Of a DNA stretch of 62,243 nt, positions 9,776 through 51,840 are shown piece after piece (position 1 is the stretch's first letter; each line of letters opens with the position of its first letter). A model generated the notes under the pieces. That model had not been told where the DNA came from and did no database searches. It worked only from the letters and a program-made list of their open reading frames with translations. The stretch spans positions 1-62,243 of the forward strand of contig RFZB01000002.1 in the NCBI GenBank assembly GCA_009920915.1. The letters run 5' to 3'. Both the position numbers and the translations under genes were made by a program. This stretch comes from Sphingomonadaceae bacterium (GTDB taxonomy: Bacteria; Pseudomonadota; Alphaproteobacteria; Sphingomonadales; Sphingomonadaceae).

Positions 9776-10146
9776 ACTATATGCTCGACGCGAACAGCGT
9801 CATTTACTTATTGTCCGGCGCATATCCTCGGCTTGAGGCGCGCGTGGCCGCCTGTGAGGTCGGCGAAATTGGCATTTCAACACTTGTGCTTGCCGAAATT
9901 CTCTATGGCAGCACGAGAGGCAAGCCACCCCTTGAAGGCGTCTTAAACCAGCTTATCGACCAGATCCCGCTGCTTGATTTCGATGCAGCTGCGGCGCGAG
10001 CCTTTGCGCAGTTGCCCTTTAAGTGGCATAGCTATGATCGCCTTATTGCGGCGCAGGCGCTCAGCCTCGGCCTAACGGTCATCACGCGCAATTTTTCAGA
10101 TTTTGCGGATGTGCCCGGCCTTAAGGTCGAAGATTGGACAATTTGA
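9772..10146 (+). CDS. vapC: VapC-type PIN-domain ribonuclease toxin
   Basis: VapC toxins are Mg-dependent RNases that cut specific tRNAs or rRNA. The 124-residue PIN domain retains the acidic residues D6 (MLDAN), E42 (LAEILYG), D89 (SYDRLIAA) and D110 (RNFSDF), so it looks catalytically intact. The start is TTG 9772, overlapping the vapB stop (TTGA); ATG 9781 is an alternative that would drop three residues. Its TGA overlaps the trmD ATG (TGATG), so toxin and trmD translation may be coupled. Confidence 0.88.
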
Positions 10147-10892
10147 TGCCCTTTCACGCCCAAATCCTGACACTCTATCCGGATATGTTTCCGGGGCCTT
10201 TGGGTCAGTCCATCGCCGGGCGTGCGCTGGAGGAGGGCAAATGGGGGCTCTCGACGGTCCAAATCCGCGATTTCGCAACGGATAAGCATCGCACGGTGGA
10301 TGATACGCCCGCTGGCGGTGGTGCTGGTATGGTGTTGAAGGCCGATGTGTTGGCCGCAGCCGTGGACCACGCCCGCGCCGCACAGCCCGATGCCCCGATT
10401 CTCGCGATGACGCCGCGCGGCACGCCCATCACGCAGGCGCGGGTGCGACATTTGGCAGCTGGCCCCGGCGTAACCATCCTGTGCGGGCGTTTCGAAGGCT
10501 TTGATGAGCGGCTTTTCGAGGCCCGCCCCGATATTGAGCAGGTCTCAATGGGCGATATTGTGTTATCGGGTGGGGAAATGGGCGCTTTGATGCTGCTCGA
10601 TGCTTGCATTCGGCTGCTTCCCGGCGTAATGGGCGCGGCTTCAAGCGGTGACGAAGAGTCGTTTGAGAACGGCTTGTTAGAATATCCGCACTATACCCGA
10701 CCCGTAGAATGGGAAGGGCGCACGATCCCTGAAGTGCTGCGATCGGGGGATCATGCGAACATCGCTGCCTGGCGGAAACAACGGGCAGAAGATGATACTC
10801 GGTTACGCAGGCCGGACCTTTGGGAGCGCCATTGTGGTGCTCGGGCCCAGCCTGCCTCTGACGCGCGGCGCAAGACTAAGAAGGACAAGTGA
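10146..10892 (+). CDS. trmD: tRNA (guanine37-N1)-methyltransferase TrmD
   Basis: TrmD makes m1G37 in tRNAs reading CNN and GGG codons, preventing +1 frameshifts. From ATG 10146 the product is 248 residues. It has the trefoil-knot SAM-binding motifs [10 protein letters not shown] and [10 protein letters not shown] and the N-terminal TLYPDMFPG. The ATG overlaps the vapC stop in TGATG. A basic C-terminal tail (RRKTKKDK) is seen. It lies six bases upstream of rplS. Confidence 0.96.
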
Positions 10893-10898
10893 GGCACA

Positions 10899-11297
10899 AT
10901 GAACCTCATTCAACAGATCGAAGCGGAACAGATCGCAAAATTGACCGCAGAAAAGAAGATTCCGGAATTTCGTCCCGGTGACACCGTCCGCGTCGGCGTG
11001 AAGGTTGTCGAAGGCGAACGCACCCGCGTCCAGAATTATGAAGGCGTGTGCATCGCGCGTTCGAACAAGGGCATGGGCTCCAACTTTACCGTGCGTAAGA
11101 TTTCGTTCGGTGAAGGTGTTGAGCGCGTTTTCCCGCTTTATTCGCCGAACATCGATTCGATTGAAGTCGTCCGCAAGGGCGCTGTGCGTCGCGCGAAGCT
11201 CTATTATCTGCGTGGCCGTCGCGGTAAGTCCGCACGTATCGCTGAGCGTCGCGACAACATTATTACGAGCGAAACGAAAACGGCCGAAGAGGCCTGA
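10899..11297 (+). CDS. rplS: 50S ribosomal protein bL19
   Basis: This is a protein at the interface of the two ribosomal subunits. The 132-residue product shows typical bL19 segments ([56 protein letters not shown]) and a short variable acidic C-terminus. A GTGAGGC site precedes the ATG. It is the last gene of the operon and is followed by a strong terminator. Confidence 0.97.
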
Positions 11298-11329
11298 TCC
11301 CGCTCGTTTACGCAAAAAACGAAACACCG

Positions 11330-11368
11330 AAAGGGCCGGGATCCAGAACAGGGTTCCCGGCCCTTTTT
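11330..11368 (+). terminator. Rho-independent terminator of the rplS operon
   Basis: AAAGGGCCGGGA (about 11330-11341) pairs with TTCCCGGCCCTTT (11354-11366) across a short loop, followed by a run of T. It ends transcription after rplS, about 20 bases before the next start codon. Confidence 0.9.
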
Positions 11369-11389
11369 CGTTATGGAGCTTTGGGGGAA

Positions 11390-13615
11390 ATGACCAAATG
11401 GATGTGTGCCGCAGCGCTGGCATTGGGATTGATGGGAACGGCTGCCATGGCTGAGCAAAATGCCGCGCCTGTGCCCTCTGCCCCGCTAACATTAGAGCGC
11501 GTCTTTGCCTCGCCAGCCATTGGCGGACGGACGCCGCGGGCTGTGCGTTTGTCTCCAGATGGAAAATGGGTGACCAGCCTGCGCCCCCGGCCGGATGACC
11601 GTGAGCGCTTTGACCTCTGGGCCATGCCAACGGATGGGGGGGATTGGCGGATGCTGGTCGATTCCACCAAGCTCGGCACCTCGGGCCAATTGACTGAGGC
11701 TGAAAAAATGCAGCGTGAACGCGCGCGCATTGCGGGCACCAAGGGCATTGTGGCCTATGATTGGGCGGCAGACGGCCAATCGCTGCTGGTGCCTGTGGAT
11801 GGCGATCTGTTCGTCGCCCGGCTGGATGGCAGCGTAGAGCGGTTGACTCAAACTGGCGGGGCCTTGGATGGCACCATCAGCCCCAAAGGTGGCTTTGTCA
11901 GCTTTGTGCGTGACAGCAATGTCTATGTTCTGGATCGGGCCAATGGCAAAACGCGGGCCCTGACCAAGGATGGTGGCGGCCCGATGACCTGGGGCCTTGC
12001 TGAATTTGTTGCGCAAGAAGAAATGCATCGCTTTCAAGGGCTATGGTGGTCGCCCGATGATCGGGCGATTGCAGTGCAGCGTACCGATGAAAGCGGCGTT
12101 GCGCTGATCAGCCGCGCAGCCATTGGGGCGGAAGGCACAACGATCTACAGTCAGCGCTATCCGCAAGCAGGCACGGCCAATGCGCAGGTTGAGCTGTGGG
12201 TGATGAACCCGCAAGCGAAGCGCCGAGTGAAGGTGGATTTGGGAGCAAATGCCGATATTTATCTGGCGCGGGTTGATTGGGCGGCAGATGGCAGTGTGCT
12301 CTATGTCCAGCGCCAATCGCGCGATCAAAAGCAGCTCGATATGCTGCGGGTGGACCCATCCACTGGGGCCAGCCAAATCTTGTTCAGCGAAACCAGCAAG
12401 AGCTGGATCAACTTGCATGACAGTTTCCGCGCGCTTGCTGATGGCAGCCTGATTTGGCAGTCAGAGCGCGATGGCTTTGCCCATCTCTACCGCTTTGCCC
12501 AAGGCCAATGGACGCAATTGACACAGGGTGCGTGGATGGTCCGCAAGCTGGTGGGCGTCGATGCCGCCAAGGGCCTTGTCTATTTCCTTGCCAATAAAGA
12601 CACGCCGCTGGAGCAGCATCTTTACGCCGTTCCCTTGGCCGGGGGAGAGATTACCCGCCTCACCCAGCCGGGGATGTGGCACAACGCCACGATGGCGCGC
12701 GCGGGCAATCGCGCGATTATTGAAGCCTCCAGCCAGAGCCAGCCGCCGCACGTCTGGTTGGCGGATAGTTCAGGCCAAAGGCTGGCGTGGATTGAAGAGA
12801 ATAAGCTCGAGGCCAGCCATCCTTATGCGCCGTATCTCGCGAGCCATGTCGTGCCGCGCTTTGGCACAATCAAGGCAGCCGATGGCAGCGTGCTGCACAC
12901 CAAATTGCTGACCCCGCCGCTGGAACCCGGCAAGCGTTACCCCGTCTTGGTACAAGTCTATAATGGCCCGGGGGCTGGCCGGCAGGTGATGAACACATGG
13001 GGCGGCGCGCTCCACCAATATCTGGTTGATCAAGGCTGGATCATTTTCTCAGTCGATGGCCGGGGATCGCCCGATCGTGGCGTTGCCTTTGAAAGCCAAA
13101 TTTACCGCGCCATGGGCGGCGTGGAAGTGGCAGACCAATTGGCGGGTGTCGATTGGCTAAAGGCCCAGCCCTTTGTCGATCCCAAGAAGATTGCGGTCTA
13201 TGGCTGGTCTTATGGCGGCTATATGACGGCCAAGCTGCTCCAAGCAGCGCCCGGCATTTTTGCCGCCGGCGTCTCGGGCGCGCCCGTCACCAAATGGGAA
13301 TTGTACGATACCCATTATACCGAGCGGTATATGGGCACGCCGCAAAAGGACGCTGCTGCCTATGCCACATCTGGCGCAATTGCTGATGCGACCAAGATCC
13401 GTGATCCCTTATTGGTCATTCATGGCATGGCGGACGATAATGTCTTTTTTGATAATGCCACGGCATTGATGGCCAAGCTGCAACAGGCGGCCATCCCCTT
13501 TGAAACTATGGTCTATCCCGGGCAGACGCATGCCGTGGGCGGGCCGAAGGTGAGCGTCCATCTGTGGACAACCATCCTCAATTTCCTCAATCGAACCGTC
13601 AAGAATAAGGACTGA
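11390..13615 (+). CDS. Secreted prolyl dipeptidyl peptidase IV (S9 family)
   Basis: DPP-IV removes Xaa-Pro dipeptides from peptide N-termini in the periplasm. The 741-residue product starts at ATG 11390 with a signal peptide (MTKWMCAAALALGLMGTAAMA). A beta-propeller domain follows, including the Glu-Glu substrate-binding segment EFVAQEEM. The C-terminal alpha/beta hydrolase has S607 (GWSYGG), D682 (ADDNVFF) and H714 (QTHAVGG). The Glu-Glu motif favours DPP-IV over other S9 peptidases. A TTG nine bases upstream is a less likely start. It is followed four bases later by asd. Confidence 0.92.
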   Translation: MTKWMCAAALALGLMGTAAMAEQNAAPVPSAPLTLERVFASPAIGGRTPRAVRLSPDGKWVTSLRPRPDDRERFDLWAMPTDGGDWRMLVDSTKLGTSGQLTEAEKMQRERARIAGTKGIVAYDWAADGQSLLVPVDGDLFVARLDGSVERLTQTGGALDGTISPKGGFVSFVRDSNVYVLDRANGKTRALTKDGGGPMTWGLAEFVAQEEMHRFQGLWWSPDDRAIAVQRTDESGVALISRAAIGAEGTTIYSQRYPQAGTANAQVELWVMNPQAKRRVKVDLGANADIYLARVDWAADGSVLYVQRQSRDQKQLDMLRVDPSTGASQILFSETSKSWINLHDSFRALADGSLIWQSERDGFAHLYRFAQGQWTQLTQGAWMVRKLVGVDAAKGLVYFLANKDTPLEQHLYAVPLAGGEITRLTQPGMWHNATMARAGNRAIIEASSQSQPPHVWLADSSGQRLAWIEENKLEASHPYAPYLASHVVPRFGTIKAADGSVLHTKLLTPPLEPGKRYPVLVQVYNGPGAGRQVMNTWGGALHQYLVDQGWIIFSVDGRGSPDRGVAFESQIYRAMGGVEVADQLAGVDWLKAQPFVDPKKIAVYGWSYGGYMTAKLLQAAPGIFAAGVSGAPVTKWELYDTHYTERYMGTPQKDAAAYATSGAIADATKIRDPLLVIHGMADDNVFFDNATALMAKLQQAAIPFETMVYPGQTHAVGGPKVSVHLWTTILNFLNRTVKNKD

Positions 13616-20970: not shown

Positions 20971-21405
20971 TTATGGCGCCGGGCACCAAGGCTGGCGGCG
21001 CCCCCCTTGATAAGGCCGGGCCAGCCCCTCGCGCACCAAAATCATGCCCAAGGATTGGCCATCGCGCAGCAATAGGCGGAGCTTGCGGCCATAGCGATCT
21101 TGATCGCGTGTGATGGTCCCCAGTTGCACCGGCCCAGCATTTAGCAGCGCTTGCAGGCGCAGCGTGGCCGCACGGCCTAAGTCCGCCTCACGTGGGCAGC
21201 GGGCCGGGTGGGTTTCGGGCGCATCAATATCTGCCACGCGGATCTTTTCTCCGGCCAACCAGATCGTATCGCCATCAACCACACAATTCACCCCGCCACC
21301 TTGATGGCATAGGCTGAAGGGTGCGCGGGCAAGGGCAGGCGAGGCAAGGCCCAAAAACCCCAGCATCAGCGCGCCAAAAACCGAATAAATTGCATGATAT
21401 TTCAT
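20971..21405 (-). CDS. Secreted thermonuclease (SNase) family protein
   Basis: The 144-residue protein has a signal sequence (about 1-27, ending ASPALA) and one staphylococcal nuclease domain. It has the calcium-site segment VVDGDTI (42-48), R56, E64 in DIDAPET and R107 in DRYGRKLR, matching the catalytic Arg-Glu-Arg of SNase. ATG 21405 is chosen because it begins the signal peptide; the frame stays open further upstream. Its TAA is in the same frame as, and directly before, the peroxiredoxin frame. Confidence 0.85.
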   Translation of the reverse strand: MKYHAIYSVFGALMLGFLGLASPALARAPFSLCHQGGGVNCVVDGDTIWLAGEKIRVADIDAPETHPARCPREADLGRAATLRLQALLNAGPVQLGTITRDQDRYGRKLRLLLRDGQSLGMILVREGLARPYQGGRRQPWCPAP

Positions 21406-26775: not shown

Positions 26776-28122
26776 TTATTTTGCCGCCGTTACTCGCCAA
26801 ATGCGGTTGCCCGCATCATCCGCGACCAATAGCCCACCTGCCGCATCGACAATGACACCTGCCGGGCGGCCCTGTGCCTCGCCCTTGGCGTTCAAAAAGC
26901 CTGTCAGCACGTCGACGGGCTTGGCCTTGGCATCGGGGAAACCGCGCGCGTTAAACGGCACATAAATAACTTTATAGCCTGAGGGCGGGTTGCGGTTCCA
27001 CGATCCATGCTGGCCAATAAAGGCGCCATTGGCAAAGTTTGCACCCAGCTTTGCACCATTGGCAAAGGCCAAGCCCAGCGAGGCCGTATGGGCGCCCAGC
27101 GCATAATTGGGCCGCTTTACATATTGCTGCAAATCGGGCCGCTGCGGCTGGACGCGGTGGTCGGTCATGCGCCAGTAAAACCACGGCCAGCCATAATGGC
27201 CACCAAAATCAACAGTCGCGAGATAATCGGGCGGAATATCTGGGCCCAGTTGATCGCGCTCATTCACGGTGGTCCAGAGATAGCCTGACTTCGGCTCATA
27301 AGCGAGGCCATTGGGGTTGCGCAGACCCGCTGTATAGATCCGGAAGGTCTTCTGCTTGGGGAAGACTTCCAACACATTGGCACGATATTCTTCGCTCTTC
27401 AGGCCATTTTCACCGATATTGCTGTTCGACCCCACGGTCACAAGCAGCGTCTTTTTATCAGGTGAGGCAATCACATTGCGCGTCCAATGATTATTGGGCG
27501 CAGAAGATGGAAGCGGCACAATCCGCTCTCCCTTGGCTGTGATTTTGTTGTCGCCCGTTTTATAGGGGAAAGCCATCAGGCTATCGGTGTTGGCGATGTA
27601 GAGCGTATTGTCGACCAGCTCCATGCCATAGGGCGAATTCAGCCCATTTTCAGCCGTCAGCAGCACCGAGCGCATATCCACTGTGCCATCGCCGTCGCTG
27701 TCCCGCAGCAAGGTGATGCGATTGGCCGATACATCAGACCCATTGGCCGATTTCATGATCTTTCGGGCAATCCAATCGGCAATGCCTTGGGTGGGCCGTG
27801 CGGGCTGCGTGCTTTCTGCCACCAGCACATCGCCATTGGGCAACAGCTTCATCCAGCGTGGATGATCCAGATCACGAGCAAATTCTGCCACTTGAAGGCC
27901 GGGCGCAGCAATTGGCTTGGCATTGCCTTGCCATCCCGTCACCTTGGCAATGACAATGGAGGGAAAGGCTTCTTGCTGAATTTTGGTCAGATCGGGATTT
28001 GGCCCATAAAGTTTGGCAATATCAATTTCTGATTTTGCCGGGGTGCTCAAATACCAAATGCCGCCGCCCAAACCGACAACGACAAGCCCGGAAATGATCT
28101 TTGCGTGGGTGCGCCAGTTCAT
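26776..28122 (-). CDS. Membrane-anchored PQQ-dependent sorbosone dehydrogenase-type protein
   Basis: The 448-residue product starts at ATG 28122 with a GGGAGAG site. It has one N-terminal membrane anchor (about 9-27) followed by a periplasmic propeller of the L-sorbosone/glucose dehydrogenase group. Segments include LDHPRWMKLLPNGDVLVAES, NSPYGMELVDNTLYIANTD, GLRNPNGLAYEP and a C-terminal RPAGVIVDAAGGLLVADDAGNRIW. Substrate and cofactor are inferred from the family. It interrupts the usual corC-lnt neighbourhood and may share transcripts with neither. Confidence 0.87.
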   Translation of the reverse strand: MNWRTHAKIISGLVVVGLGGGIWYLSTPAKSEIDIAKLYGPNPDLTKIQQEAFPSIVIAKVTGWQGNAKPIAAPGLQVAEFARDLDHPRWMKLLPNGDVLVAESTQPARPTQGIADWIARKIMKSANGSDVSANRITLLRDSDGDGTVDMRSVLLTAENGLNSPYGMELVDNTLYIANTDSLMAFPYKTGDNKITAKGERIVPLPSSAPNNHWTRNVIASPDKKTLLVTVGSNSNIGENGLKSEEYRANVLEVFPKQKTFRIYTAGLRNPNGLAYEPKSGYLWTTVNERDQLGPDIPPDYLATVDFGGHYGWPWFYWRMTDHRVQPQRPDLQQYVKRPNYALGAHTASLGLAFANGAKLGANFANGAFIGQHGSWNRNPPSGYKVIYVPFNARGFPDAKAKPVDVLTGFLNAKGEAQGRPAGVIVDAAGGLLVADDAGNRIWRVTAAK

Positions 28123-31913: not shown

Positions 31914-32669
31914 CTAGCCCAGCCCCAAGGCGGCGGCAATCTCGGCGCGGCTATGGGCGGCAATGGCCTTGCGATCCGCAAAATCCGCATGGCTTAACGG
32001 GGCCAAGAAATAGATCCGAACCGGGAACCGCCCTGGCCGACTGAGAACGCGCAGCGCATTGGCGCCAAAACTTTCCTCCCCGACCCATGCAATTTCGCCC
32101 ACAATTGGCCCATAATCGAGCGCAATGGGTTGAATAGAAATCTCATCCGGGGCCGGGGTGACGGCCGAAATAAGCGAGGATCGAAAGGGCAAAAGCGCAC
32201 TGCCATCCGCCGTTGTGCCTTCGGGAAACAAGGTGATGGGCTGGCCAGACAGCAGTCCGCGCTGCAAGGCCGTGGCTTGGTGATGGGCGGTGTGGCGCGC
32301 CTCGCGCTCAACATAGACGGTGTTGTTGCTGGTCGTCAGCCAACCAATGAGCGGCCATGGCTTCATATCGGCTTTGGCAACAAAGGCGCAGCGCGTTTGC
32401 CCCGCCAATGTCAGCACGTCGAGCCAACTGATATGGTTGGCAATATACAAAACGTTCCGACGAATGGGGGATCCCGTCACGCGGACATCTGCGCCAGCAA
32501 TCCAGCCTACGCTGCGCAGAAACAGCCCCGCAATCGGAGACTGGCGATCAAAGAGGCGCCATAGCAGGTGCAAGGGCAACAAGACCAAAAGCACCGCAAC
32601 AATTGCGGCAATCCGCACAAAGGCGCGCGGATGCGTGCGTTCAACTCTTGCGATCGAGTGCGACGCCAT
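31914..32669 (-). CDS. plsC: 1-acyl-sn-glycerol-3-phosphate acyltransferase
   Basis: PlsC makes phosphatidic acid at the inner membrane. The 251-residue product has an N-terminal membrane helix (about 17-38), the catalytic NHISWLD (H79 and D84) and FPEGTT (148-153). Its start overlaps the end of fur by 29 bases, and it ends 10 bases before miaB, so fur-plsC-miaB-phoH-ybeY-corC reads as one transcription unit. Confidence 0.92.
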
Positions 32670-33063
32670 AAAGTTCCATACGATGGTCTACCAAACGGAA
32701 GCCCAGCCGTTCGGCAATCACTTTTTGCAAGGCTTCCAATTCGGGATCTACAAATTCAATCACGCGGCCAGTTTCGACATCAATCAAATGGTCATGATGC
32801 GCTTCGGCCGCCGCTTCATAGCGGGAGCGGCCATCGCCAAAATCATGCCGTTCTAAAATGCCGGCCTCTTCAAACAGGCGAACGGTGCGATAGACCGTGG
32901 CAATTGAGATGCCCGGGTCAATTGCTGACGCCCGTTCATGCACGGCTTCGACATCGGGGTGGTCCGCTGCTTCGGACAGGACCTTTGCAATCACACGACG
33001 TTGGTCGGTAATGCGCAGCCCCTTTTCATGGCACAAAGCCTCAACATCAATATAGCGGTTCAT
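32641..33063 (-). CDS. Fur-family metal regulator, Mur-like
   Basis: The 140-residue protein has a winged-helix domain (LRITDQRRVIAKVL, ISIATVYRTVRLFEEAGI) and a dimerisation/metal domain with EAHHDHLID and a C-terminal DHRMELYG. The CxxC of enterobacterial Fur is replaced (HLIDVETGRVIEF), as in alphaproteobacterial Mur proteins that sense manganese or report iron weakly. Whether this one answers to Fe or Mn cannot be told. Its ATG lies directly after the mucR terminator and no clear Shine-Dalgarno site is seen, so a leaderless transcript is possible. Confidence 0.92.
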   Translation of the reverse strand: MNRYIDVEALCHEKGLRITDQRRVIAKVLSEAADHPDVEAVHERASAIDPGISIATVYRTVRLFEEAGILERHDFGDGRSRYEAAAEAHHDHLIDVETGRVIEFVDPELEALQKVIAERLGFRLVDHRMELYGVALDRKS

Positions 33064-37233: not shown

Positions 37234-38532
37234 ATGCTGCGTCAGTATGAATTGGTGGAAAAGGTCCGGAGCTATGATCCGGAGGCAGATGAGGATCTGC
37301 TGAACAAAGCCTATGTGTTTTCCATGAAGGCGCATGGCACCCAGCTGCGCGCCTCAGGCGACCCCTATTTCAGCCACCCTATTGAGGTGGCTGGTCTGCT
37401 GACCGACCTGAAGCTGGATGACGAGACCATTGCGACCGCCATTCTGCACGACACCATTGAAGATACGCTCGCCACGCCAGAGCATATTGAAAAGCTGTTT
37501 GGCGCCAATGTCGCCCGGCTGGTGGATGGGGTTACCAAGCTTTCAAAAATTGAAGCGCTGACGGAGAATGAACGGGCGGCTGAGAATTTACGCAAATTCC
37601 TGCTGGCCATGTCAGACGATATTCGTGTGCTGTTGGTCAAGCTGGCCGACCGGCTGCACAATATGCGCACGCTGCACTTCATTAAAAATGAGGAAAAGCG
37701 CCGCCGCATCGCGCGCGAAACCATGGATATTTATGCCCCGCTGGCTGAGCGAATTGGCATGTATGAATTCATGAAAGAAATGCAGACTTTGGCGTTCCGC
37801 GAACTGGAACCCGAAGCCTATGCCTCGATCACTAAGCGATTGGAGCAACTGCAAGAAGGCGGGGGAGATCGGATCGCGCGGATCAGCTCGGGCGTGAAAA
37901 TGCTGTTGTCGCGCGCGGGGCTGGACGCCGAAGTGACAGGCCGTGAAAAACACCCCTATTCAATTTGGCGCAAAATGGCAGAACGCCATATCAGCTTTGA
38001 GCAATTGTCAGATGTTATGGCGTTTCGCGCCATCCTGCCGGATACCGAAAGCTGTTATCAGGCGCTGGGCATTATTCACCAGCGTTGGCCGATGGTGCCG
38101 GGCCGATTTAAGGACTATATCTCAACGCCAAAGCGCAATGGCTATCGCTCGCTCCACACGTCCGTCATTCATAATGAGAAGGTGCGGATTGAGATTCAAA
38201 TCCGCAGCCGCGAAATGCACGCCCAAGCCGAATATGGCTATGCCGCACACTGGGCCTATAAGGCGGATATTCATGAGCCCGTCGCTCAAACGGCGTGGAT
38301 TCAAGACCTTGTCGAAATTCTGGAACATGCCGAAAGCCCTGAAGAGCTTTTGGAACATACCCGCATGGCGATGTACCAAGACAGGATCTTCGCCTTTACG
38401 CCCAAGGGAGAGCTGATCCAGCTGCCCAAGGGCGCAACGCCTGTTGATTTTGCCTATGCTGTCCACACCAATTTGGGCGATCAAGCGGTTGGGGCCAAGG
38501 TCAGGCACAAGAGCCGCAGCCTGTGTGGCTGA
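37234..38532 (+). CDS. Bifunctional (p)ppGpp synthetase/hydrolase, cut short in the TGS domain
   Basis: Rsh proteins make and break (p)ppGpp. This 432-residue frame has the HD hydrolase domain (FSHP at 46-49, H72-D73 in LHDTIEDT, KLADRLHNMRTL) and the synthetase domain with RFKD (291-294), the form usual in bifunctional enzymes, and RIEIQIRSREMHAQAEYGYAAHW. The TGS domain begins (FAFTPKGELIQLPKGATPVDFAYAVHTNLGDQAVGAKV), then the frame shifts and stops after ten unrelated residues. The missing part and C-terminal domains continue in another frame at 38502-39254. A product from this frame alone would have both catalytic domains without ACT control. Confidence 0.9.
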   Translation: MLRQYELVEKVRSYDPEADEDLLNKAYVFSMKAHGTQLRASGDPYFSHPIEVAGLLTDLKLDDETIATAILHDTIEDTLATPEHIEKLFGANVARLVDGVTKLSKIEALTENERAAENLRKFLLAMSDDIRVLLVKLADRLHNMRTLHFIKNEEKRRRIARETMDIYAPLAERIGMYEFMKEMQTLAFRELEPEAYASITKRLEQLQEGGGDRIARISSGVKMLLSRAGLDAEVTGREKHPYSIWRKMAERHISFEQLSDVMAFRAILPDTESCYQALGIIHQRWPMVPGRFKDYISTPKRNGYRSLHTSVIHNEKVRIEIQIRSREMHAQAEYGYAAHWAYKADIHEPVAQTAWIQDLVEILEHAESPEELLEHTRMAMYQDRIFAFTPKGELIQLPKGATPVDFAYAVHTNLGDQAVGAKVRHKSRSLCG

Positions 38533-39254
38533 GCTTTGCAGTGACGGGGAAGGCGCGTGCCGCCATCCGCCGCTTTGTGCGCAATAAGGAAGAGGATGAG
38601 CTGATTGCGCTCGGCCGCAATATCTATGACGAAATTGCCGCCCGCTTGCCCAGCAAATTGGGCGCCAAAGCCTTGGCAGATGCCATTAAGCGGCTGAAGC
38701 TGAAAGATGAAGATGTCCTGATGATTGCCATTGCCCGGCAATCCATTACCGACGCGCAATTGATGGAAGCGCTGATGCCCGGCAGCACATCGAAAGGTGC
38801 GGGCGGGGCGCCCGGACAACGCCATGCGATTTCCATTCATGGCCTGCGGCCCGGCGTTGCCTTTGATTTGGCCCAATGCTGCCGCCCAGTGCCGGGGGAT
38901 CGGATTGTCGGCGTGCGCCGCCCGGATGAAGCCATTGAAGTCCATATTATTGATTGCCCAATCTTAGCGGAGGGGCAGGATGTCGACTGGCTTGATCTGG
39001 CTTGGGGCGATGGATCTGACGGCGGCACGGCGCGGTTGAGCGTTATTGTGCGCAACCAACCCGGGGCACTGGCCGTAATGGCGGGGATTTTCGGCGCGAA
39101 TGAGGCCAATATCCTGAATTTGCGGATGGAACATCGCGATGCCAGCTTCCATAACTTCATTGTCGATCTGGAAGTGCGGGATTTGCGGCATTTGACCCGC
39201 ATTTTGGCGGCCCTGCGGGCGGCCGATGCGATCTCGCAGGCAGAGCGCGTCTAA
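38502..39254 (+). pseudogene. C-terminal fragment of the Rsh gene (helical, zinc-finger and ACT domains)
   Basis: From codon 38502 (QAQEPQPVWLSF) this frame holds the expected continuation of Rsh. It contains the helical region (VTGKARAAIRRFVRNKEEDEL), the conserved Cys pair AQCCRPVPGDRIVG and a C-terminal ACT domain (VRNQPGALAVMAGIFGANEANI). About 22 residues of the TGS domain, between GAKV and the AQEPQ segment, are absent, and the lost length must be one more than a multiple of three. A GTG at 38523 could start translation, but with no clear ribosome binding site. Its TAA overlaps the next gene's ATG. Confidence 0.85.
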
Positions 39255-48200: not shown

Positions 48201-48574
48201 GCCAGATCGCCAAAATAAAGTTGGCAATCGCCTTTGGTGGTGCGCAAATTGCCCGTGCTCAAGAGCCGGGTCAGTCGTCCCCAGCCCTGCCGGTTGGTGG
48301 GATAAGCCAGAATATCGGGCGTGCCATCGACAAAGACGAGCCTTGCCCCCACCACAAGCTGAAAGGGCCGTGTCTCGCCACCCTCGCGCCGTTCGCGCAG
48401 GGCGCGCCACGCCCGCACCACGCCCGCGACGCTATTCCGATCGGCAATGCCTAATCCTGCCAGCCCCAAATCCAGCGCACGCGCCACCATATCGGCGGGG
48501 GAAGAAGCGCCGCGCAAAAAGGAAAAATGTGTCGCTGTAGCAAGCTCAGCATAGCCCTCATCCAAATAGGCCAT
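45266..48574 (-). CDS. dnaE2: Error-prone DNA polymerase DnaE2 (ImuC)
   Basis: DnaE2 is the catalytic polymerase of SOS mutagenesis in bacteria lacking Pol V. The 1102-residue product has a PHP domain (YAELATATHFSFLRGAS at the N-terminus), the polymerase core with catalytic D402 and D404 (PDIDVDF) and a third acid in LMKVDVLALGM. A helix-hairpin-helix region and an OB fold follow. It is shorter than DnaE1 at the C-terminus. ATG 48574 overlaps the imuB 3' end by 17 bases. Confidence 0.94.
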   Translation of the reverse strand: MAYLDEGYAELATATHFSFLRGASSPADMVARALDLGLAGLGIADRNSVAGVVRAWRALRERREGGETRPFQLVVGARLVFVDGTPDILAYPTNRQGWGRLTRLLSTGNLRTTKGDCQLYFGDLAEACADMALILLPDATFQRIGDTAAAPLLIAGSGPPDLAVLVRFLRHRTPHLWIGAALHRRGRDKRHLAGLKALCARSGVPLLAVNDALYATPEDRPLQDILTCIREGQRIDQAGRLLATNAERHLKSAGEMARLFTDAPEALTESRRVLDVIRFDLGHLSYDYPHEPVPPGYTPQAWLEALVTQKAQARWPAGVPKDLQDLLNDELQIIGKLNYAAYFLTVHDIVQFAQSRGILCQGRGSAANSAVCFVLGITAVDPARHKLLFSRFISEERREPPDIDVDFEHERREEVMQYIYARYGRHRAGIVATVIQYRPRSAVREVGKALGLTEDVTQRLSSTIWGSHASKMDARRFTETGFDPDNPEIARLNHFVQQILGFPRHLSQHVGGFVLTEDRLDETVPVHNAAMPGRTFIEWDKDDIDALGLMKVDVLALGMLSCIRKAFVMMDDLRAAQGIVAPPLSLSTLPDDDEGVFDMLCRGDSIGVFQVESRAQMNMLPRMRPRCFYDLAIQVAIVRPGPIQGDMVHPYLRRRQGREAVDFPSPAAPHNPHELRDVLGKTLGVPLFQEQAMKLAIVAADFTPGEANQLRRAMATFRNLGTINEFREKLVSGMVARGYAAEFAERCFRQIEGFGSYGFPESHAIAFARLVWVSAWIKHHAPAVFAAALLNSQPMGFYAPAQIIRDARDHGVPVHPVDVNASEWDNQVFLAQDRPHLRLGFRQITGFREDWAAALVAARPFSSLEDLARRAQLPPRAVQLLADADACGSLQLPRRAALWEARRIPGAELPLFAAAQARELAHEPDMTLPDMGLGEDVAADYQMLRLSLKAHPMALLRPVFAGERILSCQALMTAKAGARVKLAGLVLVRQRPGNGKAIFITLEDETGVANIILWARNFEAQRRAVMAARLMEVQGEVQRSPEGIVHLLAHRIIDRNAVLTHLSDQQPLTPEIARADEALKPVYPRMGHPRQVRLLPKSRDFH

Positions 48575-50189
48575 GAAGATACCAATCGGGCTTGTCCTTT
48601 TCGCGCTCATAAAGCCCGTGGCGGAACAGCCAGAAGCGGCGGCCCGCGCTATCTTCCACACGATAATAATCGCGTGTCAGCCCCGCGCCATCACGCCGCT
48701 TCCACCATTCAGCGGACAGGCGTTCCGGCCCTTCATAGGCCGTGATGTCATGGACTTGCCGCCGCCAGCGAAAGCGCCGGGGCGGGCCATCAGGCACCTC
48801 GGCAATCACCTGCACAATTTGCGGCGGATCCATTAAGTGCATGGGGCGCAAGGGCGGCTCGCCAGCTTCTAAAGTGCCGCCATGATCCGCCAGCGGCAGC
48901 ACAGGCCGCGCCACAGGCACCGTAAAGCCCGCGCATTCCGGAATATGGCTATCGGCAGCAGCAAAGCGGCGGATGCGCTCTGCGCCCAGCCGCACGCTCA
49001 GCCGATCTGTTAATAGGTTAATAGATCGGGCGGGGTTGTCTTTGCCCGTCAGCCCCAGCTGGTCTGCGCCCAGTGGATCCGTTTCTGAAATGTCGAGGCG
49101 GATCAGATCATAGCCAAAGCCCGGATCAAGCGGATCTGCCAAGGTTTCAATGCGTTCTTGAAACAACCGTAAGACAAGGTCGGGGTCACGCGTGGGCTGG
49201 CCTGTCGCAATTGCCAGCCGCTGCACTTGGCTATCGCTGCGAAACAGCATGAGCAGGAAGGCGCGGGCCCCTTGGCCACGCTGGGCCAGTTGCTGGCCGG
49301 CCTCCCCGGCCAATTCATGCAGGGTGGCGCGCAGGATGTCGCTATGCCCCACAGGTTCGGCAAAGCGCTGTGTGACAGAAATGTCAGGCGGCACGCGGCG
49401 TGGGGTGATGCGGGCATCTTCCTCGCCCAAAATACGCGCCAGTCGCGCCACAGTCGCTTGGCCAAAACGTGCAGCCAGCGGCGCGCGCGGGCGCATCGCC
49501 AGATCGCCCAATGTTCTTAAGCCCGCCCGGCGCAGGGCCGTGATCTTGTCTTCTGCTAGGCCCAGTGCATCGACAGGCAGGTCCAACACGTCAAGCGGTG
49601 TTGCGTGCGAGGTGGCTGCGGCCTGTTCCGGCTGGGGTTGATAGCCAAGGCCAGTTTCGTTCAGATTCCGCGGGGAAATTTTACGTCCCACACGCAGCAT
49701 ATCACCGCCATGCCGGGCCAGCGCGCGTGCCTTGTCGGGCGTTTCCGCTAGGGCCAGCCGCAAGGTCAGCCCCAATTGCACCAGATGTGCGGCCAGCGCG
49801 CTCATCAATCCGGCCTCGCCCCCCCAAAGATGCGCGCAGCCCGTAATGTCCAAAATGAGCCCATCGGGCGGGTCCAGCGCAACGGAAGGCGTGAAACGAT
49901 CACAGCTGTCGGCGATTTCCTCCAGCCAGCGGGCATCGCCTGCGGCATTATAAGGTGTCGTTTGCAGGTCGGGCAGGCGCGCGCGGGCATCGGCCAGTGC
50001 CATGCCCGGGGTAATGCCCAAAGCCTCGGCCATTTCATCCACGGCCATAATGCGCATGGCGCCTTTATCGCGCGCCACAAAAGCGCGTGGCCCCAATTGG
50101 CCGGGGTGATTACGCAGCCATGTGTCGGCGCTGAGAAGGGGCAGGAAGATCGCGCAATAGCGTCGGTTCGCAAACTCGTCTGTACTCAT
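48558..50189 (-). CDS. imuB: ImuB, inactive Y-family polymerase homologue
   Basis: ImuB links ImuA, DnaE2 and the beta clamp in translesion synthesis and has no polymerase activity. The 543-residue product has Y-family architecture, but the catalytic acids are missing: the first motif reads YCAIFLPLL and the second LDITGCAHLWGG. A little-finger-like region and a long C-terminal region (about 350-543) follow. ATG 50189 lies inside imuA, giving an unusually long 80-base overlap. Confidence 0.92.
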   Translation of the reverse strand: MSTDEFANRRYCAIFLPLLSADTWLRNHPGQLGPRAFVARDKGAMRIMAVDEMAEALGITPGMALADARARLPDLQTTPYNAAGDARWLEEIADSCDRFTPSVALDPPDGLILDITGCAHLWGGEAGLMSALAAHLVQLGLTLRLALAETPDKARALARHGGDMLRVGRKISPRNLNETGLGYQPQPEQAAATSHATPLDVLDLPVDALGLAEDKITALRRAGLRTLGDLAMRPRAPLAARFGQATVARLARILGEEDARITPRRVPPDISVTQRFAEPVGHSDILRATLHELAGEAGQQLAQRGQGARAFLLMLFRSDSQVQRLAIATGQPTRDPDLVLRLFQERIETLADPLDPGFGYDLIRLDISETDPLGADQLGLTGKDNPARSINLLTDRLSVRLGAERIRRFAAADSHIPECAGFTVPVARPVLPLADHGGTLEAGEPPLRPMHLMDPPQIVQVIAEVPDGPPRRFRWRRQVHDITAYEGPERLSAEWWKRRDGAGLTRDYYRVEDSAGRRFWLFRHGLYEREKDKPDWYLHGLFG

Positions 50190-50892
50190 TGTTCCACTCC
50201 ACCACCATGTCAAAAGGCGTTGCACCACCGCGATGGCGCAGCAGGGCGAGAGACAGCGTCAGGCGTCCCGGTGCATTGCCGGGCAAGGGTGCAGAAGGCG
50301 CCGCAGCCACTTGCCAGCGTGAAGCGGCAGCGCTGGCTAAAATACTGGCGGGCGGGCGCAGCAGCAGCGCTGTGACGCCCGATCGCTCTGCCGCCAGTGC
50401 CAAGCGCCGGCTGGCTGTCAGGTCGAGTCGCTGGGTCGCCCCCATATCGAGGATCAACGCAGCAAGGCCGGTACAGGCCAGGCTATCTGCCGCCGCCTTT
50501 AGGCACGCCAGATCATCTGGGGCGTGCACCAGCAATATCTGGTCCGGATCCAGCCCCAAATCGGCAAGGCCAGGGCCATAAGGCGCGCCATAGCGCCGCC
50601 GTTGGGCATCGCTAGAGATCCAGAGGATTGTGCCTGCAGCTTCTGCCGCGCGCCGGGCAATGATCAGCGCAAAGGCCGAGGCGCTTGGCCAATCGCCTTC
50701 GGCACGCGGTAACACTTCATGCACCGCCCCGCGCGCCAGCCCACCGTCCAGCCGGGCATCCAGCCTATCCAGCCCAAAAGACACCCGGCCCCGGGGGTCA
50801 CGCCACGCGGACGGGGTAAGTGCCTCTATCTGGCGTTTAAGCCGGGCAAGCGAAGGATGCGAATCAATTATGTTCACCATTTGTTCTATCAT
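50110..50892 (-). CDS. imuA: ImuA, RecA-like SOS mutagenesis protein
   Basis: ImuA (also called SulA-like or RecA-like) is needed with ImuB for DnaE2-dependent mutagenesis. The 260-residue product has a degenerate RecA core: FGLDRLDARLDGGLARGAVHEV, a region in place of Walker A without the GKT, LIIARRA, LWISSD and ALILDMG. ATG 50892 has a weak AAGAG site; ATG 50880 is an alternative lying within the SOS box. The long frame further upstream runs through galU and is rejected. Confidence 0.88.
   Translation of the reverse strand: MIEQMVNIIDSHPSLARLKRQIEALTPSAWRDPRGRVSFGLDRLDARLDGGLARGAVHEVLPRAEGDWPSASAFALIIARRAAEAAGTILWISSDAQRRRYGAPYGPGLADLGLDPDQILLVHAPDDLACLKAAADSLACTGLAALILDMGATQRLDLTASRRLALAAERSGVTALLLRPPASILASAAASRWQVAAAPSAPLPGNAPGRLTLSLALLRHRGGATPFDMVVEWNNEYRRVCEPTLLRDLPAPSQRRHMAA
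50872..50886 (-). promoter_or_regulatory. LexA (SOS) box of imuA-imuB-dnaE2
   Basis: On the minus strand the site is GAAC, seven bases (AAATGGT), GAAC, the exact alphaproteobacterial LexA consensus GAAC-N7-GAAC. It overlaps the candidate start codons of imuA (ATG 50892 is just upstream, ATG 50880 inside), so LexA would bind around the start of the coding region and block transcription coming from the 80-base gap to galU. Confidence 0.85.
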
Positions 50893-50973
50893 GCTCTTGA
50901 TTAAATCTGTGTCAAGGCTTCCCCTCCTATGAGCCGCGCTGTTAAAGGCGAAGCGACTGTGACGAGGGGTTTT

Positions 50974-51840
50974 ATGCAAAAAGTCAGAAAAGCGGTGTTT
51001 CCCGTGGCTGGGCTGGGCACGCGCTTCTTGCCTGCCACCAAGGCAATGCCAAAGGAAATGCTGCCCGTCGTGGATCGCCCGTTGATCCAATATGCCGTGG
51101 ATGAAGCGCGCGAAGCGGGCATTGAACAAATGATCTTCGTCACAGGTCGCGGCAAAAGCGCGATTGAAGACCATTTCGACATTGCCTTTGAACTGGAACG
51201 CACGATGAGCGACCGGGGCAAAGACCTGTCAGTGCTGGAGCCCACCCGGCTGGGCCCGGGCAATTGCGCCTATGTCCGCCAGCAAGAGCCTTTGGGCCTA
51301 GGCCATGCCATTTGGTGCGCGCGCGATATTATTGGCGATGAGCCTTTTGCCATTTTTCTGCCTGATGAATTCATGGTCGGTAAGCCCGGCTGCATGAAGC
51401 AGATGATGGATGCCTATAATCAGGTGGGCGGCAATCTGATTTCGGTGCTGGAAGTGCCGCATGATAAAGTCTCCAGCTATGGCGTGATCGCGCCGGGCAA
51501 GGCGCAGGGCAATATCACGCAAGTGATGGGCCTTGTCGAAAAGCCCAAGGTCGAAGACGCGCCTTCCAACCTGATCATTTCAGGCCGCTATATCCTCCAG
51601 CCAGATGTCATGCGCGTTTTGGAAGCGCAGGAAAAAGGCGCCGGCGGCGAAATCCAGCTGACCGACGCGATGGCGCAGATGATTGGCAAACAGCCTTTCC
51701 ACGCCGTCACCTTTGATGGCGACCGGTATGATTGCGGAGATAAGGCGGGCTTTATTACCGCCAATATCGCTCTCGCCCTTGCCCGGCCTGACATCGGGCC
51801 AAGCGTCAAGGCGTGGCTGAAAACAATCAATCTTGATTAA
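50974..51840 (+). CDS. galU: UTP-glucose-1-phosphate uridylyltransferase
   Basis: GalU makes UDP-glucose for glycans and exopolysaccharides. The 288-residue protein has the nucleotidyltransferase signature GLGTRFLPATKAMPKEML (13-30), GLGHAIWCA, the acid pair LPDEF, the VEKP motif and GDRYDCGDKAGF. ATG 50974 has a strong GAGGGG site; the ATG 45 bases upstream has none. It is divergent from imuA. Confidence 0.96.
   Translation: MQKVRKAVFPVAGLGTRFLPATKAMPKEMLPVVDRPLIQYAVDEAREAGIEQMIFVTGRGKSAIEDHFDIAFELERTMSDRGKDLSVLEPTRLGPGNCAYVRQQEPLGLGHAIWCARDIIGDEPFAIFLPDEFMVGKPGCMKQMMDAYNQVGGNLISVLEVPHDKVSSYGVIAPGKAQGNITQVMGLVEKPKVEDAPSNLIISGRYILQPDVMRVLEAQEKGAGGEIQLTDAMAQMIGKQPFHAVTFDGDRYDCGDKAGFITANIALALARPDIGPSVKAWLKTINLD

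Follow-up and report, generated by a model that had tools for sequence, protein, structure and literature searches.

C-terminal truncation of an alphaproteobacterial RSH enzyme is already a known kind of mutation. The adapted strain Komagataeibacter medellinensis ITO-1 carries a spoT deletion, stated as 424 bp, which cuts the C-terminal region short. A K. medellinensis strain constructed without TGS and ACT proved viable and thermotolerant, and its authors report preliminary data for ppGpp accumulation (PMC9135448). Activities have been measured for laboratory-made truncations in other bacteria. The catalytic half of Bacillus subtilis Rel (Rel NTD) on its own gives weak net synthesis (PMC7058999), and hydrolysis by Acinetobacter baumannii SpoT is 42-fold lower when the C-terminal half is removed, TGS-HEL included (PMC9974481). 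In the parts of these two papers drawn on here, the constructs come close in domain content to the gene product described below, and none is noted as ending inside TGS. Among sphingomonads, SYK-6 and a second strain are each described as carrying a single rsh, and mutants deleted for it have been studied in both (PMC11024222).

Here we describe a broken rsh frame, in the sole Rsh gene found in the draft genome of a Sphingomonadaceae bacterium related to Sphingomonas. The window analysed, 62,243 nucleotides long, is the entire contig C2, and its G+C content is even (56–61%). The features of the locus are collected in Table 1. The first ORF encodes 432 residues and contains an HD_4 domain (E 4.5e-50), a RelA_SpoT synthetase domain (PF04607, E 8.9e-41) and a TGS domain whose Pfam match covers positions 1–42 of 60; codon 423 (38500–38502) is the last in register. 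Its HDTIED and RFKD stretches lie in the HD and synthetase parts, and we take them to be the motifs of these domains. RelA_AH_RIS and ACT_4 are matched solely in the second ORF, outside the first frame. ORF reading and Pfam thus bear out the first-pass annotation, which had described a clean HD–synthetase frame shifting inside TGS, an out-of-phase continuation and the loss of the helical and ACT domains from the first product. As a long RSH, the first frame has the HD and synthetase domains and lacks a complete same-frame TGS, the helical/RIS region and ACT. Solved structures of relatives reach HD, the synthetase and part of TGS (6yxa and 7oiw among 36 sequence matches). A gene resembling 3-oxoacyl-ACP synthase III adjoins rsh on the opposite strand, and a TPR-sulfotransferase gene also adjoins it, its ATG overlapping the rsh stop. 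A sigma-70 scan returned no promoter-like sites (1.2 expected), and terminator-like matches were at chance level (3 against 2.7 expected).

Table 1 Features of the broken rsh locus (positions in the window).
Feature	Coordinates	Strand	Basis
N-terminal in-register part of rsh, 423 codons (HD hydrolase, RelA_SpoT synthetase, TGS positions 1–42)	37234..38502	+	ORF, Pfam, relatives
Junction, where relatives have 67 bp more; placement ambiguous by 1 bp (38502/38503 or 38503/38504)	38502..38503	+	Alignment, BLAST offsets
Out-of-frame tail of truncated product, 9 residues and TGA stop	38503..38532	+	ORF reading
Detached C-terminal part, 248 codons still in the ancestral frame (helical region, RIS, ACT) and stop	38508..39254	+	Pfam, relatives
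First ATG/GTG/TTG-started ORF in C-terminal frame (GTG, 243 aa; 10-base overlap with first ORF)	38523..39254	+	ORF reading

When the 2.0-kb gene is aligned with that of G006, the closest relative, and with that of G012, a single gap appears, exactly 67 bp long and directly after GGTC. From a set of 80 loci, two (L034 and L035) were aligned across the break and the remainder entered a BLAST comparison, in which the offsets to further relatives, among the matches listed, are also 67. Because 67 is 3 × 22 + 1, the frame is shifted and about 22 TGS residues are gone; of the losses of 61, 64 or 67 bases that had been predicted from the window sequence, the last is the one found, and the frame-shifting deletion inside TGS stands as a feature of the assembled sequence. 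The split is not a matter of chance, as G006 has a continuous 695-aa protein that the two pieces match at 98% and 94%. The join shares one base and has no long repeat around it. In the relatives, CCAAGG lies near both ends of the lost stretch at a spacing of 72 (G012), and a 13-base imperfect repeat has a spacing of 66 (G006). Neither spacing gives 67, and simple slippage between repeats was therefore rejected as the cause.

The frame, as judged from the length of open frame over the break point, is open in 11 of 12 same-genus genomes; in the twelfth (G007) the match stops at residue 141, before the break point. All seven genes extracted (from G001, G003, G005, G006, G008, G009 and G012) have 695 codons, and the first 423 residues are 81–99% identical in the nine same-genus genomes that hold this stretch in one piece. 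The Rsh of Chakrabartia godavariana (L034, taken as G008) and of the other same-genus genomes is the same gene, with an open frame and the 67 bp present, whereas the window gene has neither. Together with the clean single gap, the openness and constant length in relatives were counted in favour of a real deletion.

The openness across the break point also speaks for the main alternative, namely an artefact of assembly or library, in which the consensus took up a minority variant among the strains, a chimeric read or a wrongly closed gap, while the cells carry an intact Rsh. We consider this nearly as likely as a recent deletion. The draft comprises 347 contigs with 4.4% contamination and is the one assembly available for the break, which counts against a real deletion, and a large study put many putative bacterial pseudogenes down to assembly errors (PMC11017572). 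Against an artefact, a k-mer graph would not be expected to jump at a 1-base join without junction reads. The absence of a long repeat, which we also counted for a real deletion, and the short join argue against graph collapse, but not against a chimeric read or faulty gap closure.

Frame breaks in other genes bear on the same question. Scans of the window with the gene sets of G001, G008, G009 and G012 matched 41, 42, 29 and 15 genes and flagged 6, 3, 6 and 2, respectively, rsh being among the flagged genes in all four cases. A single further two-frame flag (10645–11294, G009 set) was rejected, as it comes from a frame spanning the end and start of two intact ORFs, 10134–10892 and 10899–11297 (by eye, trmD and rplS). 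All remaining flags, at six places, concern stops in a single frame. At three of these places (48561–50327, 31938–32783 and 10978–11361) an open frame on the same strand covers 96%, 89% and 94% of the stretch, and three (50113–51780, 21110–21310 and 27094–28089) coincide wholly or partly with a longer opposite-strand open frame; all six were taken, short of case-by-case proof, as over-long or shadow source ORFs rather than broken genes. A wider scan against G008 covered 154 genes over 527 kb on 32 of the 347 contigs (genes matching 880 kb of G008; a break with a sub-threshold second piece would escape it) and flagged 14. Two flags were two-frame: rsh, and an antisense match over 10896–11465 with its other piece 2 kb away, which was rejected as a shadow ORF. 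The other 12 are one-frame stops; in 10 of them at least 82% of the stretch is covered by an open frame of the same strand, in two it is not (C2 50113–51702 and C3 4195–5244). Scans of this kind also raise flags when run between relatives, so flags alone mean little. The rsh gene is the only accepted frame split among the 154 genes compared; the lesion is therefore not part of a visible indel pattern, a result that was counted for a real deletion and against an artefact.

The whole draft assembly (2.44 Mb, 95.03% complete) was searched for a second Rsh or the lost piece. A family search of this draft found no second synthetase or HD_4 domain, the single match to each lying at rsh, and two TGS matches, one in rsh and one in another gene. 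The C-terminal DNA and protein of G006, compared with the genome, recovered only the two broken rsh pieces and a weak TGS-like protein match on contig C326; the TGS match there, in a 683-codon frame, is probably threonyl-tRNA synthetase. No copy of the lost 67-bp piece was found elsewhere in the 95%-complete draft by family, protein or DNA searches. The earlier statement that the window holds no other Rsh thus extends to the draft assembly as a whole. A second, intact RSH gene could lie in the roughly 5% of the genome missing from the assembly, but this is extremely unlikely: with an N-terminal query, none of the 12 same-genus genomes has two long RSH genes, the two matches in G004 being contig-end pieces that fit one gene.

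Substitution patterns bear on the age of the break. Between the window and G006, dS is 0.71 and dN 0.0067 in the N-terminal part, and 1.05 and 0.029 in the C-terminal 248 codons, a ratio of 0.028. Among seven relatives (21 pairs) the C-terminal dN/dS ranges from 0.027 to 0.136, which places the window–G006 pair at the constrained end. The 12 C-terminal amino acid differences from G006 divide into 4 assigned to the window lineage, 2 to G006 and 6 ambiguous; the 5 N-terminal ones into 3, 0 and 2. We saw no decay of the detached half, that is, no stop, further shift or rate excess over 248 codons, and the cut-off part has neither the relaxed selection nor the extra lesions of a decaying pseudogene. 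Decay would be expected after a real break of any age, so that the undecayed half counts against a real deletion, and its fully constrained look suits an artefact. The absence of relaxed selection means that the break is very recent, or an artefact, or that the half is still used; the sequence alone fits a young deletion, one absent from the cells and a half in use.

The last of these options would be a functional split, in which reinitiation at the GTG at 38523 yields a C-terminal protein that acts on the stump in trans. The C-terminal frame is open and constrained, the GTG falls 10 bases before the first ORF ends, and AAGAG at about 38509–38513 precedes it as a weak Shine–Dalgarno-like sequence (by eye). 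An overlapping second ORF is likewise seen in G063, a genome of the same order. We nevertheless regard such a split as very unlikely. TGS itself is cut through with the loss of about 22 residues, the start and Shine–Dalgarno sequence were identified by eye only, and a recent or false break would leave equal constraint; the A. baumannii study goes no further than mentioning that truncated RSH variants could make contacts in trans (PMC9974481). The broader proposal of a naturally split RSH, with two overlapping frames encoding a hydrolase–synthetase stump and a separately started helical–ACT protein that regulates it in trans, and with G063 as a second independent case in the order, is a shade less probable again.

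Breaks in Rsh occur elsewhere in the order. An Rsh match was present in 394 of 396 sampled genomes, the window genome (G000) included, with open frames assessed only among the matches listed. Seventeen genomes, chosen mostly for weak best scores, were searched again and 16 gave a match. Two-frame or stop-bearing matches within a contig were seen in eight (G000, G063, G040, G019, G107, G121, G130 and G145); the pieces in G070, G116, G117, G125, G147 and G190 are apparently cut at contig ends or otherwise partial, and the gene in G087 is whole. Besides G000, three of the eight were inspected: G063, G040 and G019. In G063, from another family (10 contigs, 100% complete), rsh (L253 1501–3634) is broken after TGS by a 5-bp deletion, leaving a 495-aa ORF. 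Comparison with G102 identifies the deletion as one unit of a tandem GCAGC; four of six relatives were alignable. As in the window gene, the frame is broken after the catalytic half and the downstream frame is still open; unlike it, the deletion is of 5 bp and lies further on, with TGS kept, and this break too is known from assembly alone. The G019 gene has several breaks, in an assembly that is 86% complete with 7% contamination. Apparent Rsh breaks are thus uncommon but not unique, and some of them will be sequencing errors. Since some of these other genomes may be noisy, a false one-gene break is not improbable. The separate break in G063 was nonetheless counted for a real deletion in the window.

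Three of the genomes searched again gave further observations. In the 2-contig genome G040 (L184, G040:C1:2833500-2836500, minus strand), Rsh has a one-base shift between HD and synthetase, which could reflect either an error in sequencing or a gene split into HD and synthetase parts. G029, of the same family (3.8 Mb, 5 contigs, 96% complete), has neither an Rsh nor a RelA_SpoT match. G275 (99% complete) has RelA_SpoT in a 360-codon frame (L275, G275:C224:15885-16223) and no long Rsh match, possibly reflecting a short synthetase only, or a long gene in a gap.

Weighing this evidence, we favour a recent natural deletion giving a C-terminally truncated Rsh, with a probability of about 0.5, and infer that it is present in the cells. 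The alphaproteobacterial precedent, ITO-1 and the viable constructed strain, was counted on the same side. ITO-1 SpoT/Rsh and the window gene are both alphaproteobacterial long RSH genes that keep the catalytic half and have lost part of the C-terminal control region, and the 424-bp deletion, like that of 67 bp, is a multiple of three plus one, as are the 418 bp spanned by the table coordinates (PMC9135448). The two differ in that ITO-1 keeps TGS and loses the ACT part, whereas here TGS itself is cut. Moreover, the ITO-1 deletion was obtained by experimental thermal adaptation, and constructed mutants reproduced it, whereas the one in the window is known from assembled sequence alone. If the break should prove false, it would be a reminder to consult reads before drawing physiology from a lesion in one gene of a draft genome.

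Based on these comparisons, we propose a plausible course of events. A recent illegitimate deletion of 67 bp, with one base shared at the join, would have removed part of the TGS codons of the only long RSH gene found. The product would be a 432-aa stump of HD, synthetase and partial TGS, and, lacking a whole TGS, the helical region and ACT, it would be blind to starved ribosomes and to signals acting through the C-terminal half. The weak net synthesis of B. subtilis Rel NTD and the 42-fold fall in hydrolysis of A. baumannii SpoT suggest that a strongly weakened hydrolase is a better expectation for the stump than the two activities ascribed to it in the first-pass annotation. Poor hydrolysis of (p)ppGpp may then lead to a constitutive, unregulated (p)ppGpp level, as others have proposed for Komagataeibacter with C-terminal deletions in spoT. 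By analogy, a sphingomonad living with the stump alone, a weak and unregulated enzyme, is credible. If the deletion is real, this bacterium, with a single known RSH, would be living without the regulatory half of its starvation enzyme, its alarmone level unregulated, and would parallel in nature the spoT truncations selected in the laboratory.
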